A stretch of DNA of 42,836 nt. Origin: Desulfocapsaceae bacterium. GTDB taxonomy: Bacteria; Desulfobacterota; Desulfobulbia; Desulfobulbales; Desulfocapsaceae. Positions 11,320 to 42,214 of this stretch are shown here, piece by piece. Below the pieces are notes generated by a model that was not told where the DNA came from, ran no database searches, and saw nothing but the letters and a program-made list of their open reading frames with translations. The stretch is taken from NCBI GenBank assembly GCA_028697885.1, contig JAQVER010000026.1:1-42836 (forward strand), in the 5' to 3' direction. Position 1 is the first letter of the stretch. Each line of letters starts with the position of its first letter. A program made the translations under genes and the position numbers.

Positions 11320-11393
11320 TGGCTGGGGGACGAGGGCTCGAACCTCGATAAGCGGAGTCAGAGTCCGCTGTCTTACCATTAGACCATCCCCCA
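11320..11393 (-). tRNA. tRNA-Gln, anticodon CTG
   Basis: This is a complete 74-base cloverleaf. The acceptor is TGGGGGA/TCCCCCA with discriminator G and an encoded CCA. The D arm contains TCTAATGGTAAGA. The anticodon stem GCGGA/TCCGC encloses loop CTCTGAC, with CTG at the anticodon positions. The T arm is CGAGG-TTCGAGC-CCTCG. The U-G start and G discriminator fit glutamine tRNAs. It is not clustered with other RNAs. Confidence 0.97.
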
Positions 11394-34652: not shown

Positions 34653-34970
34653 ATGAAGATGATCCATCTGGCCGAGTCCCGGATCTTTGAAGAGAAAGGA
34701 TTGAAGCGGTTTCTGCTCCACGATTCACCTTATTTCAGGATATTGAATTTCAACCTGCAGGCGGGGCAGATCTTTCCGGTGCACCGTCATCCGGCGGATG
34801 GTCAGGTAAGTATTCAGGTTATTGAAGGCAGCGGTCAGTTTTTGGGAGAAAATGAGACAGCTCTGCCCGCCGTGGCCGGTGATATCCTGGTCAGTGATAT
34901 TAACGAGCCGCATGGGGTCAAGGCCGACACTGATATGCGCATCCTGGTCACCATTGCCCCACCATTTTGA
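34653..34970 (+). CDS. Small cupin-domain protein
   Basis: This 105-residue single-domain cupin has motif 1 as PVHRHPADGQVSIQVIEGSG (about residues 44 to 63), with His residues for metal and the conserved Glu replaced or shifted. Motif 2 is PAVAGDILVSDINEPHGV (about 75 to 92), with the second His. Such proteins bind a metal or small molecule, and many have no known substrate. The ATG at 34653 has a weak AAGGA box. The next gene on the right is on the opposite strand, so it is likely monocistronic. Confidence 0.8.
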   Translation: MKMIHLAESRIFEEKGLKRFLLHDSPYFRILNFNLQAGQIFPVHRHPADGQVSIQVIEGSGQFLGENETALPAVAGDILVSDINEPHGVKADTDMRILVTIAPPF

Positions 34971-35018
34971 AAGGAAAATCAAAGACAGGGATGGCTTGTT
35001 CGTTGAAACAGGATTCCT

Positions 35019-35276
35019 TTACAGTTGCAGGCCTGCCTCTTTTAAAAAGTTTTGAATTTCCGTGCGGCTGAGAAAAATGCCGCTCAGGGTCTTATCGCCG
35101 TTCTTCAGGGTGGGAATAAAGCGAATGCCATCCTTTAATGCCCGCAGGGGGTTGGTGATAATATCCACTTCTTCAATGTGTATTTCAGGCTTGTTGTCGA
35201 TTAACTCATACAGAGTTTTACGGGCCATATGGCACCGTGGTCAAAGGGCTGAACGGTAGAGAGTGATATCGATCAT
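35019..35276 (-). CDS. Thioredoxin/glutaredoxin-fold selenoprotein with UxxC motif (in-frame UGA)
   Basis: Read from ATG 35276, the frame gives MIDITLYRSAL, then UGA (35241-35243), then PRCHMARKTLYELIDNK, and continues to the stop at 35019: 85 codons in total. UGA sits exactly where a thioredoxin-fold CxxC motif would have its first Cys, giving U-P-R-C. After it come the expected betaalpha elements, VDIITNPLRALKDGIRFIPTL, with the cis-Pro loop IPTL, and a final helix. Decoding UGA as selenocysteine is therefore likely. A gene caller would start at the Met at 35228 and lose the redox motif. GGAG lies 10 bases before the ATG. The alternative is a Cys-to-stop mutation in a pseudogene. Confidence 0.75.
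35220..35238 (-). promoter_or_regulatory. Candidate bacterial SECIS hairpin after the UGA
   Basis: Two bases after the UGA the minus strand can fold as ACGG, bulged U, GCC, loop AUAU, GGC, CCGU. This gives a 7-bp stem with a single bulged U on the 5' side, as in the E. coli fdhF element. The loop is close to the UGA (10 bases) and lacks the usual G, so it is not a canonical match. Confidence 0.4.
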
Positions 35277-35416
35277 AAGGAACGTGCTCCTGTCTGCATG
35301 TTGTTGAAGCTACCCGAAGAATGAATCCATTTGACATCGTTTGAACAGCAGGATACACCGAAAGAAAGGAATTATTCAACATCCGTTTGTTTCATGACCT
35401 TTCCTCTCAGGTAATT

Positions 35417-36373
35417 ATGCCTCTCCCTTCATTGCTCACACTCATCACCGATTCCCGTTTTCTGGATCACGATACGGGTGGAGATCACCCCGAGATCCCG
35501 GCCAGGCTTCAGTCCATTCTGGCGACCCTTGAACAGAGTGATTGCTTTGCCCTCCTTGAACAGTTTCAGAGTCGGCCGGCCGAGAGACAATGGCTGATGG
35601 CAGCCCATGATGAGGGGTGGCTCTTTCGTCTTGAAGAGGCGGTCCTCTCGGGCAAGACCTTTATTGATCATCCTGATAACCAGATCGGTTATGACTCCTA
35701 TGATGTGGCAGTCCTTTCTGCCGGTGCCGGACTCACCGCCATTGATCTGCTCGAACAGCGGCAGGCGCAGCAGTGTTTTGCTCTGGTCCGTCCGCCAGGG
35801 CATCATGCCGAACGGACCAGACCTTTTGGCTTCTGTTTCTTCAATAACTGTGTGGTGGCGGCTCGTTACTGGCAGCAGCACTATGGTCGCAAGCGCATAA
35901 TGGTCTTTGATTTTGATGCCCATCATGGCAACGGGATTCAGTCGGCCTTTGAGCGGGAGGAGGATTCCTTGTATGTCAGCATCCATGAGCATCCCAGCTT
36001 CAGCTATCCAGGAACAGGCTATGCGGATGAAAAAGGGTTTGCTGCTGGTCGCGGTTCCATTCTTAACCTGCCGCTTTCTCCCGGTGCGGGCGATGCCCAG
36101 CTTCTGGCGCTGCTCCCGCTAGTGGAAGAAAAGATTGCGCAGTGGCAGCCTGATGCCATGATTGTAGCGGCCGGATTTGACGGCCATCGAGCCGATGAGA
36201 TGTCGGGTCTGCTCTATTCGACAGGGATGTTTGAAAAAATAGGAGAGAGTGTCCGCAGCTGGAGCAATCTGTACTGTCGTGGCAGATTGCTTTCCATCCT
36301 TGAGGGCGGCTATGAGTTGACAGTGCTGGGAGAGTCGGTTGAGGCGTATGTGCAGGGACTATTGGTCCGGTGA
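35417..36373 (+). CDS. AcuC-like histone deacetylase family protein
   Basis: This is a zinc-dependent lysine deacetylase of the arginase/deacetylase fold. I chose ATG 35417 with a weak AGG box. A TTG at 35387 would extend it by ten residues. The 318-residue protein has the catalytic His pair in RPPGHHAERTRPFGFCFFNN (near 134), Zn ligands in FDFDAHHGNGIQ (Asp and His) and VAAGFDGHRADEMSGL (Asp), and the Tyr in LEGGYEL. Bacillus AcuC removes acetyl groups from acetyl-CoA synthetase. The acetyl-CoA genes and AcuB-like gene downstream make a similar role likely here. Confidence 0.88.
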   Translation: MPLPSLLTLITDSRFLDHDTGGDHPEIPARLQSILATLEQSDCFALLEQFQSRPAERQWLMAAHDEGWLFRLEEAVLSGKTFIDHPDNQIGYDSYDVAVLSAGAGLTAIDLLEQRQAQQCFALVRPPGHHAERTRPFGFCFFNNCVVAARYWQQHYGRKRIMVFDFDAHHGNGIQSAFEREEDSLYVSIHEHPSFSYPGTGYADEKGFAAGRGSILNLPLSPGAGDAQLLALLPLVEEKIAQWQPDAMIVAAGFDGHRADEMSGLLYSTGMFEKIGESVRSWSNLYCRGRLLSILEGGYELTVLGESVEAYVQGLLVR

Positions 36374-36439: not shown

Positions 36440-37075
36440 ATGTATATTTCCAGATATATGATCCGAGAACCGTTGACGGCAACGCCTGATATGTCGCTTC
36501 CTGAGGCCAGGCGTTTATTGAATGAAAATCATTTCCGTCATCTGCCGGTGGTGGATGGGCAGGGACAACTGGTGGGAATGATTACCGACCGTGATCTGCG
36601 TTCGGCTTATCCTTCCTCGGTGCTTTCTGAAAGTGAACGTCTGCAGGCTTATGAACGGGTGGAGAAAACGACGGTGGTGGATATCATGAGCACCGAGTGT
36701 GTCGGACTGACCCCCGAATCGACCCTTGATGATGCCCTGCTCCTTTTTGATCGCGAGGGTGTGGGGGCATTGCCGGTCCTTGAAGACGGCCAGCTGGTTG
36801 GCATTTTTTCCAGCCGGGATCTGCTTACCGCCTATAAAGAGCTTTTCGGGGTTGGTGAGAAAGGGTCGGTACTGCTTGGCATTGATGACGACGGCCAGAG
36901 CGGTCTTATGACCAGAATCGTCACCTTGCTTGAACTGCATAATATCCCTTTTACCCGTCTGCTGCGTATTCAAGATATGGAACATGGCAACCGGATCTAT
37001 CTTCGCTTAAATACCTACAAGATTGCTTCAGTAGTCGTTTTACTGCGGGAGGCAGGAATCCATCCGGCCTTGTAA
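36440..37075 (+). CDS. AcuB-like protein: two CBS domains plus ACT-like domain
   Basis: This 211-residue cytoplasmic protein starts with two CBS domains. The first is MIREPLTATPDMSLPEARRL with HLPVVDGQGQLVGMITDRDL. The second is IMSTECVGLTPESTLDDALL with ALPVLEDGQLVGIFSSRDLL. CBS pairs bind adenosine nucleotides and sense energy charge. The C-terminal part (LMTRIVTLLELHNIPFTRLL, about 155 to 174) looks like an ACT domain, the AcuB arrangement. It follows the AcuC-like gene by 66 bases and precedes the ADP-forming synthetase, matching the acu locus idea. Exact function of AcuB is not known. Confidence 0.82.
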   Translation: MYISRYMIREPLTATPDMSLPEARRLLNENHFRHLPVVDGQGQLVGMITDRDLRSAYPSSVLSESERLQAYERVEKTTVVDIMSTECVGLTPESTLDDALLLFDREGVGALPVLEDGQLVGIFSSRDLLTAYKELFGVGEKGSVLLGIDDDGQSGLMTRIVTLLELHNIPFTRLLRIQDMEHGNRIYLRLNTYKIASVVVLLREAGIHPAL

Positions 37076-37225: not shown

Positions 37226-39349
37226 ATGAGTCTTGATGTCCTGTTTCGCCCTGAGTCGGTGGCGGTGATTGGCGCTTCCAGAACCCCGGGCAAGGTTGGT
37301 CATGATATCCTGGCAAATCTGGTGCAGGATGGATTTCCCGGGGTCATTGTCCCGGTGAATCCGGCAGTTGACACCCTGTTTGATCTGCCTTGCTATGCCT
37401 CCCTTGCAGCCTGGGGTAAAGAGATTGATCTGACCGTGATTGTAGTGCCGCGGGCCATGGTTTTGGCAGCGATAGAAGACAGTATCAAGGCTAAAACCAA
37501 GGCGATTATTGTTATTACTGCCGGATTTCGCGAGACCGGACCGGAAGGGCTGGCCGAGGAACAGAAAATCGCTGCACTCTGTCAACGTCACAATGTCCGG
37601 GTGTTGGGGCCAAACTGTCTGGGCCTGATCAACACCGAGGCCAGACTCAATGCCTCTTTTGCCGGCCGGATGCCGGAACCGGGCGGCATCTCCATTTTTT
37701 CCCAATCAGGGGCTCTGTGTACCGCCATGCTGGATCTGGCTGCGGGCAGACATCTTGGTCTGGCCAAACTGATCAGTATCGGCAATAAGGCGGATATCTC
37801 CGAGGTTGACCTGCTTTCATATCTTGCCCATGATGAGCAGACCAAGGTGATTGTCGGTTATCTTGAAGATATTGCTACCGGTAATAATTTTGTCAAGGCG
37901 GCGGAAGAGGCAGCCACCCGGAAACCGGTGATTATCCTGAAATCAGGAACAACGGCTGCCGGTCTGAAGGCGGCTGCGTCGCATACAGGAGTCCTGGCCG
38001 GGGTGGACACCGCCTACGGTGCGGCCTTCAAACGTTCAGGTGTGGTGCGGGCCGATACCTTTGATGCTCTTTTTGATTATGCCACGGCCCTCTCCATGCA
38101 GCCGCTGCCCAAGGGAAACCGGATTCTTATTATCACCAATGCCGGTGGTCCTGGCACCATGGCTGCCGACGCGGTGGAAAAGGCCGGGATGGAGGTGGCG
38201 GAGCTTGACCGCAATACGGCCACTGCCCTTCGGGCGCAACTGCCCCAGGCGGCAAGCGTGGGCAACCCGATTGATGTACTCGGCGATGCCGATCCCGAGC
38301 GCTATGTGGCGGCCATTGAGGCGGCTCAGGACGATCCGTCCGTTGATGCCATTCTGGTAATTCTTACTCCTCAGGCCATGACCAGGCCGGCAGAAACGGC
38401 CATCGCCATTGCCAGGGCCTTGGACGGTTCCAAGCCGGTGGTAGCCTCGTTCATGGGGGGCCGGGACGTGATGCCGGGGCGTAAGGAACTCTCTGCCGCC
38501 GGACTTCCTGATTATGAATCGCCGGAACGGGCGGTCTCTGCCCTGAAGGGCATGGTGGAATATGCGGCCTGGAAGCAGCGACCGCCGCGCCTGGTGACCA
38601 GGTTCCGGGTAAACCGAAGGCGGGTGGAGCGCATTATCAGTCGCCGTCAGCGCACCGGCATGCTCCAGTTGGGTGAGGTGAAAGGAAAAGATATCCTCGG
38701 GGCCTACGGGTTCCGGGTGCAGGATGGGGCTCTGGCCTGCACTACTGAGGAGGCCGTAGAAATTGCCGAACGCATCGGTTATCCCGTGGCCATGAAGATC
38801 GTTTCTCCCAATATCGTCCATAAAAGCGATCTGGGTGGAGTGATGCTCAATATGGCCAATGGTGAGGCAGTCAGCGATGCCTACGACCTGATGATGTTGA
38901 AGATCCGCAAACGGGTGCCGGATGCCTTGATTGAAGGGATCTATGTGGAACAGATGGCCAAGAAGGGCTTGGAGATTATCATCGGCATGACTCGTGATCC
39001 CCAGTTCGGGCCTATGCTCATGTTTGGTCTGGGCGGAATTTTTGTTGAGGTGATGAAGGATGTAACCTTCCATCTGGCTCCGATCACCGAAGAAGAAGCC
39101 ATCCAGATGCTGAAATCGACCCGTTCCTATGCCATGCTTGAAGGTAAGCGGGGACATAAAGGGGTGGATATCACGGCTATTGCGTCCGGTCTGCAGCGGA
39201 TCAGCCAGTTGACCACTGATTTTCCGCAGATTCTGGAGCTTGATATAAATCCGTTTATTGTTGGTGAGTTCGGTACCGAGCCGGTAGTGGCGGACGCGCG
39301 TATGACCCTGGCTCCGTTGCCAGAGGAGGGAGAAAAACATGGAATATGA
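37226..39349 (+). CDS. Acetate-CoA ligase (ADP-forming), fused alpha-beta
   Basis: This enzyme interconverts acetyl-CoA + ADP + Pi and acetate + ATP + CoA. The 707-residue protein fuses the CoA-binding domain (FRPESVAVIGASRTPGKVG, residues 7 to 25), the succinyl-CoA-ligase-like domains (FSQSGALCTAMLDLA near 158), the phosphorylated active-site His253 in AASHTGVLAG, and a C-terminal ATP-grasp domain (GYPVAMKIVSPNIVHKSDLG near 522). There is no GNAT domain, unlike Pat/YfiQ acetyltransferases, and the His is intact, so it should be a real synthetase. TTTAGGAG lies six bases before the ATG. It overlaps the next gene by 11 bases. Confidence 0.92.
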   Translation: MSLDVLFRPESVAVIGASRTPGKVGHDILANLVQDGFPGVIVPVNPAVDTLFDLPCYASLAAWGKEIDLTVIVVPRAMVLAAIEDSIKAKTKAIIVITAGFRETGPEGLAEEQKIAALCQRHNVRVLGPNCLGLINTEARLNASFAGRMPEPGGISIFSQSGALCTAMLDLAAGRHLGLAKLISIGNKADISEVDLLSYLAHDEQTKVIVGYLEDIATGNNFVKAAEEAATRKPVIILKSGTTAAGLKAAASHTGVLAGVDTAYGAAFKRSGVVRADTFDALFDYATALSMQPLPKGNRILIITNAGGPGTMAADAVEKAGMEVAELDRNTATALRAQLPQAASVGNPIDVLGDADPERYVAAIEAAQDDPSVDAILVILTPQAMTRPAETAIAIARALDGSKPVVASFMGGRDVMPGRKELSAAGLPDYESPERAVSALKGMVEYAAWKQRPPRLVTRFRVNRRRVERIISRRQRTGMLQLGEVKGKDILGAYGFRVQDGALACTTEEAVEIAERIGYPVAMKIVSPNIVHKSDLGGVMLNMANGEAVSDAYDLMMLKIRKRVPDALIEGIYVEQMAKKGLEIIIGMTRDPQFGPMLMFGLGGIFVEVMKDVTFHLAPITEEEAIQMLKSTRSYAMLEGKRGHKGVDITAIASGLQRISQLTTDFPQILELDINPFIVGEFGTEPVVADARMTLAPLPEEGEKHGI

Positions 39350-41216
39350 TGTGAACTGGAAAGAGACCTACAAGGATATGATCATGACCCCCAAGAAGGC
39401 CATGGCCAATGTCCGTTCCGGCCAGCGCGTTTTTCTGGGGACGGGTTGCGGTGAACCCACCGTACTGGTGCAGGCTATGACCGAAATGGCAGGCACTCTT
39501 AGCGATGTGGAGATTGTTGAGCTCCTGACCAAGGGCGATGCCCCTTATGCCGACCGGAAATATGCCGACTGCTTCAAGATCAATTCTTTTTTTATTGGTC
39601 ATAATGTCCGGGAAGTGATTCAGGAGGGCAGAGGGGATTATACCCCTATCCTTATGTCGGACATCCCTGGATTGTTGAACTCCGGGCAGTTGCCCCTTGA
39701 TGTGGCCCTGATCCAGGTGACTCCGCCTGATGCCAGAGGCAAGATGAGCCTGGGGGTATCTGTTGATATCGTCAAGGCCGCTGCCGAGAATGCCTCACTG
39801 GTGATTGCTCAGGTCAATCCGCAGATGCCGTGGACCCGCGGCGACAGCCTGATTGATGTGGCCGACCTTGATATCCTGGTACCAGCCGATATGCCCCTGC
39901 TGGAGCGCCTGTCGCAACCGGTGCACGAGGTGAGTGCCCGAATCGCCGAATTGGTGGCGGCCCTGATCCCGAGCGGCGCCACGATTGAGTTTGGACTGGG
40001 CCGGGTTCCCGGGGTCGGCCGGGTTCCCCAGGCCGTGATGCAGGCTTTGTACAACAAGCATGACCTGGGTATCCATACGGAACTGATCACTGATGATATC
40101 ATTGATCTGATTGAGTCGGGAGCGGTCAGTGGAGCCCGTAAATCCACGGATCGGGGCAAGATTGTCACCAGCTTCTGCATGGGAACCAAAAGATTGTATG
40201 ACTATATCAACGATAATCCCTTGTTTTCCTTCCGGCCCACTGAGTATGTTAATGACTCCACGGTGATTGGTAAACAGAACCGGATGGTTGCCATCAACAT
40301 GGCACTCGAGATTGATCTGACCGGCCAGATCTGCTCTGATTCTGAAGAAGGGGTCTTTTACTCCGGCATCGGTGGCCAGGTGGATTTTAACCGCGGGGCG
40401 GCAAGATCAACCGGCGGCAGGGCTATTATTGTCATGCCGGCCACCACCAGAGATGGTAAATCACGTATTGTGGCATCCTTGAGCAGCGGCTCGGGAGTGG
40501 TGGTCACCCGGGGCACAGTTCACTATGTGGTCACGGAATACGGGGTGGCCTATCTGCACGGTAAATCTGTGCAGGATCGTACCCTGGCCCTCGTCTCCAT
40601 TGCCCATCCGGATCATCGTGAGCAGCTTTTGAAACAGGCCATTGAGGCCAGGTTTCTCCGGCGGGAATTTGCCGATGTAGAGGGGAAATTTGTGGTCGCC
40701 TCCCTGGACCTGATGAAGACCAGTTCCCTGCTTGATAATGGAACCCAGGTCAATTTCCGGCCCGTTCATCCCACTGATGAACCGCTGATGCGGGATCTGC
40801 TTTATGATCTTTCCAAGGAAACTCTCTATTATCGGTTTATGAGTCATAATCAGCGCTTCGGCCAGAAACAGATCCAGAATTTTGTTTATGTCGATCATCG
40901 CAAGGATGTGGCCATTGTCGGCACTCTGCCTGAGGCCTATGGTGAAGATATCATTGCCGTTGGCCGTTATTATCTGGATGAGCACACCAACCTGGCCGAG
41001 GTCGCCTTTGTGATCCGGGATGAGTGGCAGAACAAAGGGCTGGGCGGCTTTCTCTTCCGCCATTTGATTACCATTGCCAAGGCCGGCGGTATCAGCGGAT
41101 TTACGGCCGAGGTCCTGCGTGATAACAAACGGATGCAGGCTATCTTCAACCATTCCGGGTACAAGGTCCAGAGCCGGGTGGAAGAAGGTGTGTGCAGTTT
41201 TAAGATTGAATTTTAG
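39339..41216 (+). CDS. Acetyl-CoA hydrolase/CoA-transferase with C-terminal GNAT domain
   Basis: The first 430 residues are a family I CoA-transferase (acetyl-CoA hydrolase/4-hydroxybutyrate CoA-transferase type). Motifs are GTGCGEPTVLVQAM near 29, TIEFGLGRVPG near 211, SDSEEGVFYSGIGGQVDFNR near 332, and VVTRGTVHYVVTEYGVAYL near 387. Residues about 470 to 625 add a GNAT acetyltransferase: FRPVHPTDEPLMRDLLYDLS, VAFVIRDEWQNKGLGGFLF (acetyl-CoA loop) and LRDNKRMQAIFNHSGYKV. CoA-transferase and acetyltransferase thus share one chain. It overlaps the ADP-forming synthetase by 11 bases, so both are co-translated. A GAGGAGGG box lies upstream. Confidence 0.9.
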   Translation: MEYDVNWKETYKDMIMTPKKAMANVRSGQRVFLGTGCGEPTVLVQAMTEMAGTLSDVEIVELLTKGDAPYADRKYADCFKINSFFIGHNVREVIQEGRGDYTPILMSDIPGLLNSGQLPLDVALIQVTPPDARGKMSLGVSVDIVKAAAENASLVIAQVNPQMPWTRGDSLIDVADLDILVPADMPLLERLSQPVHEVSARIAELVAALIPSGATIEFGLGRVPGVGRVPQAVMQALYNKHDLGIHTELITDDIIDLIESGAVSGARKSTDRGKIVTSFCMGTKRLYDYINDNPLFSFRPTEYVNDSTVIGKQNRMVAINMALEIDLTGQICSDSEEGVFYSGIGGQVDFNRGAARSTGGRAIIVMPATTRDGKSRIVASLSSGSGVVVTRGTVHYVVTEYGVAYLHGKSVQDRTLALVSIAHPDHREQLLKQAIEARFLRREFADVEGKFVVASLDLMKTSSLLDNGTQVNFRPVHPTDEPLMRDLLYDLSKETLYYRFMSHNQRFGQKQIQNFVYVDHRKDVAIVGTLPEAYGEDIIAVGRYYLDEHTNLAEVAFVIRDEWQNKGLGGFLFRHLITIAKAGGISGFTAEVLRDNKRMQAIFNHSGYKVQSRVEEGVCSFKIEF

Positions 41217-41545: not shown

Positions 41546-42214
41546 ATGAAGAGGGAACAACAATCAACGTGCTTACGCTGCGGCGTCTGCTGCCAGAAAG
41601 GTGGTCCGGCCCTGCATGGTCAGGATTTGGCCTTGGTGCGCGGCGGACACTTACCCATGGCAAACCTGATAACCATCCGGCGCGGGGAGTTGGCCCACAA
41701 TCCTCTTTCCGGTATCATTGAACCGGTTCTCTCGGAGTTGGTAAAGATCCGGGGGACCGGCCAGGAGTGGTGCTGCTGGTATTATGAACCGGCGAGCAAG
41801 GGCTGTTCCATCTACGGAAATCGGCCTATGGCCTGTGGGGTATTGAAGTGCTGGCAGCCGGAGGAGACCCTTGCCATCGTTGGTCAGGATCTGCTCAGCC
41901 GCTTGGATATTCTGGAGGATAAGGACCCCCTCCGCCCCTTAGTAGTGGAGCATGAGCGATTATGCCCCTGTCCTGACATGGGTGATATTGAGAAAGCACT
42001 GAGCGAGCAGGCAGAGAAAATCTTGCCGTCACTTGAGGGTCGGGTCAATACCGATCTTGCCTTTCGGGACAGGGTGGTGAAAGGATTTAACCTGCCTCTG
42101 TCCCTCGAGCTGTTTCTCTTCGGCCGGCCACTTTTTCAACTGCTGCAACCTTTTGGAATAGCTGTTTCTGAATCTCCCCAGGGGCTGAAGTTGATACTTC
42201 GAAAAAAACTTTGA
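41546..42214 (+). CDS. YkgJ-like cysteine-cluster (Zn/Fe-chelating) protein
   Basis: This 222-residue cytoplasmic protein begins with CLRCGVCCQKGG (residues 9 to 20), the CxxCxxCC signature of the YkgJ/UPF0153 family. Further Cys follow in EWCCWYY near 75, KGCSIYGNRPMACGVLKCW near 85, and LCPCPDMG near 140, enough to bind a metal or Fe-S centre. The C-terminal half is unassigned. The start is 22 bases into a weakly marked leader. It sits between two GC-rich inverted repeats with no operon partner. Family function is not established. Confidence 0.82.
   Translation: MKREQQSTCLRCGVCCQKGGPALHGQDLALVRGGHLPMANLITIRRGELAHNPLSGIIEPVLSELVKIRGTGQEWCCWYYEPASKGCSIYGNRPMACGVLKCWQPEETLAIVGQDLLSRLDILEDKDPLRPLVVEHERLCPCPDMGDIEKALSEQAEKILPSLEGRVNTDLAFRDRVVKGFNLPLSLELFLFGRPLFQLLQPFGIAVSESPQGLKLILRKKL

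Follow-up and report, generated by a model that had tools for sequence, protein, structure and literature searches.

We found that a window of DNA (the whole stretch analysed, 42,836 nucleotides from a Desulfocapsaceae bacterium) carries on its minus strand an 85-codon gene that in all likelihood encodes a small thioredoxin-fold selenoprotein, its in-frame UGA being read as selenocysteine (Sec) by the Sel system together with a hairpin at 28 nt. The occurrence of UGA at this codon is confirmed and lies well beyond chance, because 61 of 110 orthologues have TGA there and every one of the remaining 49 has TGC or TGT. For the window gene we infer Sec insertion itself from its sequence and that of its relatives. 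The best reading of the product is a new family of a known kind, the UxxC thiol/selenol oxidoreductases.

Reading frame and codon 12

An earlier sequence-only reading of this DNA had proposed an 85-codon frame with UGA at the first position of a U-P-R-C motif, naming no strand. Translation of 35276-35019 confirmed this frame on the minus strand, with the product MIDITLYRSALUPRCHMARKTLYELIDNKPEIHIEEVDIITNPLRALKDGIRFIPTLKNGDKTLSGIFLSRTEIQNFLKEAGLQL, and with a single in-frame TGA. The good ATG with GGAG upstream described in that reading was likewise found, the start codon occupying 35276-35274 behind an AGGAG (Table 1). CAGGAG precedes the start in 13 of the 14 genes of the genus, the window gene among them; the exception (L026) has CAGGAA and a GTG start. 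Scans of 34950-35480 for sigma-70-like promoters and for terminators found none, and a search of the window for known RNA families returned a tRNA at 11323-11393 as its only match.

Table 1 Features around the UGA-containing gene, in window positions
Feature	Position	Strand	Remarks
Thioredoxin-like gene, predicted selenoprotein	35019..35276	-	85 codons, TAA stop within the span
In-frame UGA, predicted selenocysteine codon 12	35241..35243	-	position 1 of U-P-R-C
AGGAG, ribosome-binding-site-like	35287..35291	-	kept within the genus
Predicted bacterial SECIS hairpin, AACUC-UGUAU-GAGUU	35203..35217	-	loop 28 nt after UGA, G at loop position 2
Second hairpin, loop AUAU	35220..35238	-	10 nt after UGA, between UGA and SECIS hairpin, no loop G
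Histone-deacetylase-fold protein (PF00850)	35387..36373	+	divergent neighbour
CBS-domain protein	36440..37075	+	neighbour
Small cupin	34653..34970	+	neighbour, convergent with the selenoprotein gene

We searched 93 genomes of the window's family, 257 of its order and 395 drawn from its phylum, and obtained protein matches in 77, 158 and 18 of them, respectively. Close relatives look confined to the order at the search sensitivity used, since 11 of the 18 phylum matches lie outside it and reach only E 3e-5 to 9e-4. Codon 12 was read in 110 of the 158, one orthologue per genome (30 search loci and 80 fetched). These were the best-scoring apart from G040 and G242, whose entries in the match list show no internal stop, and the remaining 48 genomes stand outside the codon-level reading. 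The codon was TGA in 61 orthologues, TGC in 28 and TGT in 21, and nothing else; UGA and Cys forms numbered 32 and 39 in the window's family (f1) and 29 and 10 in all other families. Pro-Arg follows codon 12 in all 110 sequences and C15 is present in 109. The sole case of a replaced resolving Cys is a UGA gene (L064, genome G006) that reads U-P-R-S. C12 (counting U as C), P13, R14, L22 and P55 are invariant in a set of 75 sequences. Cys- and Sec-containing homologues aligned over residues 1-16, which the sequence-only reading had named as the check to make, thus exist. UGA as a Trp codon was ruled out, as the homologues have only Cys at codon 12.

An ordinary gene caller had been expected to give only 69 codons from 35228, and the mechanical list of open reading frames indeed gives 35228-35019 alone for this locus. 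That call is what speaks for the UGA as a true stop, with a 69-residue product starting at Met17, no redox motif, and upstream conservation that is a mere remnant. We compared selection on the two sides of the codon by pairwise pN/pS counts among UGA genes. In the window's genus (g1, n = 12) the ratio was 0.27 before the UGA and 0.24 after it, and in genus g4 (n = 16) it was 0.16 and 0.27; beyond the start codon, by comparison, the ratios were 0.89 and 0.93. These values indicate that the codons upstream and downstream of the UGA form one predicted protein under the same purifying selection, and we rejected the true-stop reading, which has very little probability, because selection upstream equals that downstream. 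It also sits poorly with the 49 of 110 orthologues that have Cys at codon 12 and are open straight through, with the complete lack of TAA or TAG at that codon among the 110, and with the structural model described below, from which a start at residue 17 would remove strand 1 (residues 2-8) as well as the opening turn of helix 1 (13-25).

SECIS hairpins and selenocysteine machinery

The rule given for bacterial SECIS elements (bSECIS) in a 2026 review (PMC13188914) asks for a stem of 4-16 bp, a 3-9 nt loop whose first two positions include G, a distance of 16-37 nt after the UGA and a minimum free energy no higher than -7.5 kcal/mol. The window hairpin agrees with the shape rule, having 5 bp and the 5-nt loop UGUAU at 28 nt. 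Its folding energy was -14.8 kcal/mol for the 48 nt after the UGA and -3.5 kcal/mol for the 5-bp hairpin alone. Applied to the 48 nt folded whole, where the published folding length may differ, the -7.5 limit was passed by 57 of 61 UGA genes and 31 of 49 Cys genes, and it does not discriminate well between the two. The second hairpin of Table 1 was set aside as a SECIS because its loop has no G and its 10-nt distance lies outside 16-37 nt.

We then scored a stem in fixed register, defined as 4 or more uninterrupted pairs that close a loop of 5 nt whose first two positions include G. At +28 this stem and loop occur in all 32 UGA genes of f1 and in 2 of its 39 Cys genes. In the other families of the order, a stem at +21 occurs in 25 of 29 UGA genes and in none of the 10 Cys genes, and no UGA gene has a stem in the other group's register. 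Of the four +21 exceptions, three retain the stem in imperfect form, with a bulged base in L117 and L138 and a mismatch in L120, and L141 differs. This last UGA gene (genome G214) shows no clear hairpin at either 28 or 21 nt and has a 4-bp stem, loop GGUCU, at 18 nt. The mean hairpin energy of the f1 UGA genes was -5.5 kcal/mol versus -0.7 in synonymous shuffles, and 28 of 32 genes of the +28 group and 10 of 29 of the +21 group beat their own synonymous shuffles at p <= 0.05. The percentage paired, the number of double-change cells and the covariation score were above all 500 shuffles in both groups, although sequence relatedness can inflate all three; counts of pairs and of pair types were unremarkable against the shuffles in both groups. 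With the published shape rule, our own limit of -2 kcal/mol and any register allowed, 59 of 61 UGA genes and 14 of 49 Cys genes qualified; because of the latter, the background of SECIS-like hairpins in Cys genes is not nil.

The genome of the window was said to need selA, selB, selC and selD for the selenoprotein interpretation. It has selA (630 bits), a selC product, namely a tRNA-Sec of 70.6 bits with anticodon TCA by ARAGORN, and selD (376 bits), which carries an in-frame UGA of its own in GUAAK. For selB, a C-terminal part of 421 residues runs off the end of contig C142, and the N-terminal part of SelB was not identified in this genome. A second Rfam match to tRNA-Sec (58.7 bits) came without an ARAGORN call. 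The finding holds, and the selenoprotein interpretation is supported; neither of the two refuting conditions named in the sequence-only reading, a lack of homologues over residues 1-16 or a lack of selenocysteine machinery, speaks against it.

The presence of selA is no discriminating test between UGA and Cys forms, since 214 of the 257 genomes of the order have it and so do 36 of the 49 Cys genomes, next to 54 of the 61 UGA genomes (compared by hand). The seven UGA genomes with no selA match (G023, G024, G080, G088, G151, G153 and G182) gave none in a repeat search with the full SelA protein either. A tRNA-Sec over the cut-off is present in five of them; the other two, G024 and G151, with none over the cut-off, are rated 78% and 74% complete. 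G023, an assembly of 4.0 Mb in 2 contigs with a completeness rating of 100%, carries both the UGA form and a tRNA-Sec of 73.9 bits (G023:C1; L035, L159, L166). Neither TIGR00474 nor the full SelA protein found a selA there, and none lay in the 20 kb around the tRNA-Sec. G036 and G037 also had no selA match with TIGR00474. These misses are as likely to be a fault of search or data as to be true absence. Two Desulfosediminicola genomes are credited with 43 and 40 selenoprotein genes in a published survey (PMC12013277). In at least 31 of the selA matches listed, judged by eye, the gene starts 125-560 nt from the contig start, that of the window's own genome (G000:C84:363) included. An assembly break thus recurs beside Sec genes, and selB too is cut by a contig end in the window's genome. 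Rfam found no RNA in L001.

Fold, class and known relatives

An AlphaFold2 model built with 75 sequences (pLDDT 95.2) has a thioredoxin core with elements E2-8, H13-25, E32-38, H43-48, E56-59, E62-65 and H71-80. This is the beta-alpha-beta-alpha-beta-beta-alpha arrangement in which helix 1 opens with the redox motif and a conserved proline precedes a later strand. Foldseek returned thioredoxins as the best solved folds (E 1e-5, TMq 0.78), and sequence profiles ranked MJ0307-type thioredoxins first (TIGR00411; PDB 1fo5 and 1nho). The thioredoxin-fold UxxC part of the sequence-only reading stood; its label 'glutaredoxin-like' is better refined to 'thioredoxin-like', because glutaredoxins are more distant in sequence than the small thioredoxins of archaeal type (MJ0307, PDB 1fo5).

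The remaining rival within this fold is a glutathione-dependent glutaredoxin or mycoredoxin-type selenoprotein in place of a thioredoxin-type reductase. The protein is small, the Glrx-like, Glutaredoxin and mycoredoxin models match it weakly, and its motif is of the CPxC type, which is also found in glutaredoxins. Nonetheless, TIGR00411 matches 73 of the 75 members at E <= 0.01. An IPAL/IPTL-type proline region is typical of thioredoxins, and TVP with a C-terminal Gly-Gly of glutaredoxins; the family has IPAL/IPTL around the invariant P55, not TVP, and its consensus lacks the Gly-Gly. We judge the glutaredoxin assignment unlikely.

For the thioredoxin-type oxidoreductase, we consider it most likely that the U12/C15 pair would reduce disulfides. 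UGA codon 12 would be decoded as Sec by SelA, SelB, SelC and SelD under the direction of the hairpin loop at 28 nt, and U12-P-R-C15 at the start of helix 1 would serve as the selenol/thiol redox centre. The selenolate would attack a disulfide in a client protein, C15 would resolve it, and the U-C selenenylsulfide would be re-reduced by a donor of the thioredoxin-reductase type. Electron flow in this direction, like the donor and the clients, is inferred, and the protein is probably cytosolic.

The family was compared with the small redox selenoproteins and thioredoxins already described. An ordinary gene call shortens the window's gene, and none of the listed models in a Pfam/NCBIfam scan of the window protein reaches its cut-off; across the 75 members the best E-value was 1.9e-10. 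Sec-thioredoxin (PF00085) and Sec-glutaredoxin (PF00462), entries in Table 1 of the 2026 review (PMC13188914), share with the window protein the thioredoxin fold, an N-terminal UxxC and small size. The window protein, however, scores 20.3 bits against PF00085 (gathering score 23.5) and 18.6 against PF00462 (22.9), and it differs from these selenoproteins in its UPRC motif and in having homologues in 158 of 257 genomes of one order and weakly elsewhere in the phylum. The MJ0307-family thioredoxins (TIGR00411; 1fo5, 1nho) resemble it in their 85 residues, in a CPxC at the same place and in a similar core, but the solved archaeal proteins have Cys (CPHC in 1fo5) and the window protein reaches 32.7 bits where the cut-off is 92.75. 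UXX-star and HUGP/GUXX-star (NF047338, NF041212 and NF045501) are by name small glutaredoxin-like selenoproteins as well; here the scores were 17.5, 13.6 and 12.1 bits against cut-offs of 97, 66 and 325, the first two limits being the curated ones of UXX-star family 3 and Uxx_star.

The hypothetical protein GOS_C (NF045500), compared here by its description, has UxxC and a TRX_GRX-like domain (cd02973 in PMC9312934) in the tables of the reviews, and shares both with the window protein. The 15 NCBIfam matches listed for the window protein up to E = 10 do not include NF045500, and neither do the 20 families to which at least one of the 75 members matched, in a library that may lack this model. 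Table 1 of the 2026 review, as far as its entries go, has none that separately matches the window family, which may nevertheless be included in that table under Trx or Grx, and no paper naming it appeared among the literature listings and passages covered. The entry for Desulfolithobacter dissulfuricans GF1 in PMC12013277 is 22, 22, 0, which we read as 22 predictions, all of known families. A family member may already have been counted in such surveys as a generic Trx or Grx, or may have been missed.

Sec/Cys exchange and gene neighbours

The family is unusual in its repeated Sec/Cys switching and its two SECIS positions. A tree of the 110 proteins, computed with the active-site residue masked, requires at least 12 state changes, 6 of them forced by well-supported branches. 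As the tree is unrooted and its 77 columns leave many forks open, it does not by itself separate gains of Sec from losses. L014 and L018, the two Cys genes of the window's genus, each differ from a UGA relative by one base in 60, with TGC in place of TGA and the other 59 bases identical. Their hairpin is intact (they are the two f1 Cys genes with the +28 stem) and their genomes retain selA. Because they fall within groups of UGA genes on the tree, they are best read as recent Sec-to-Cys changes. L108, a Cys gene of another family, has the loop CGGGC of its UGA sister L110 and has lost the closing pair. SECIS-like remnants behind Cys codons were earlier described in an FdhA and a HesB-like protein (PMC1794560), and the 2026 review (PMC13188914) describes Sec-to-Cys substitutions in bacteria as rare and documented mainly in FdhA and SelD.

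The two close relatives that differ from UGA genes over 60 nt solely by TGA/TGC are also what could point to an error of sequencing, or to a TGC/TGT Cys codon mutated privately, as the source of the UGA. Since UGA recurs in 61 genomes of different species from separate assemblies, and UGA genes have a hairpin that is absent from nearly all Cys orthologues, we give that explanation practically no credence.

The neighbouring cupin and acetyl-CoA genes pointed out in the sequence-only reading are real. The CBS-domain protein of Table 1 is one that we take to be AcuB-like. Further along, 39339-41216 encodes a fusion of an acetyl-CoA hydrolase/transferase with a C-terminal GNAT acetyltransferase and adjoins an ADP-forming acyl-CoA synthetase. 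Neighbours were counted in the 110 genomes within flanks of up to 5 kb, often shorter, so that all counts are lower bounds: the histone-deacetylase-fold protein occurred in at least 48, the CBS protein in at least 51, the ADP-forming acyl-CoA synthetase in at least 39, leuA in at least 25, and the cupin and a class I adenylate cyclase in at least 15 each.

Directly downstream of the thioredoxin gene, at least 38 of the 110 loci have an exchanger-like gene. Its product is a membrane protein of 280 aa related to Na/Ca exchangers, encoded about 218 nt after the UGA (L027-L041, L066 and others), and it just passes PF01699 (25.2 bits against 24.9). When starts are chosen mechanically, 20 of the 38 loci show a 4-nt overlap of this gene with the thioredoxin stop, and four well-conserved cysteines are present in 34, 38, 36 and 35 of the 38 proteins. 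Used as a query, the protein matches 45 of the 93 family genomes, and in 43 of the 45 it adjoins the thioredoxin gene (coordinates compared by eye); G055 and G070 have the exchanger-like gene, and the thioredoxin gene was not found there. In the window's own genus the link was ruled out, because none of 17 genomes matches the same query. Where it is encoded, the exchanger-like protein is a candidate client; this concerns at least 38 of the 110 loci, none of them in the window's genus.

For the family as a whole, we lean slightly towards a history in which one active-site codon would have acquired Sec more than once, a new SECIS hairpin arising at its own distance on each occasion (28 nt for one family, 21 nt for others and perhaps 18 nt for a single genome), and would have lost it repeatedly by a single-base UGA-to-UGC change that left the SECIS behind; in part of the family the protein may be the redox partner of the co-encoded Na/Ca-exchanger-like transporter. 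If this is true, Sec/Cys exchange in bacteria could be followed in this family as in a natural series. The family is a further one with such exchange, in a large order of sulfur-cycle bacteria, beside FdhA and SelD, and its single-base species pairs permit a direct test of what selenium buys in an otherwise nearly identical protein.

The window also encodes a CxxCxxCC protein (PF03692) at 41546-42214, and at 18 loci a protein of similar look stands near a Cys-form thioredoxin gene.
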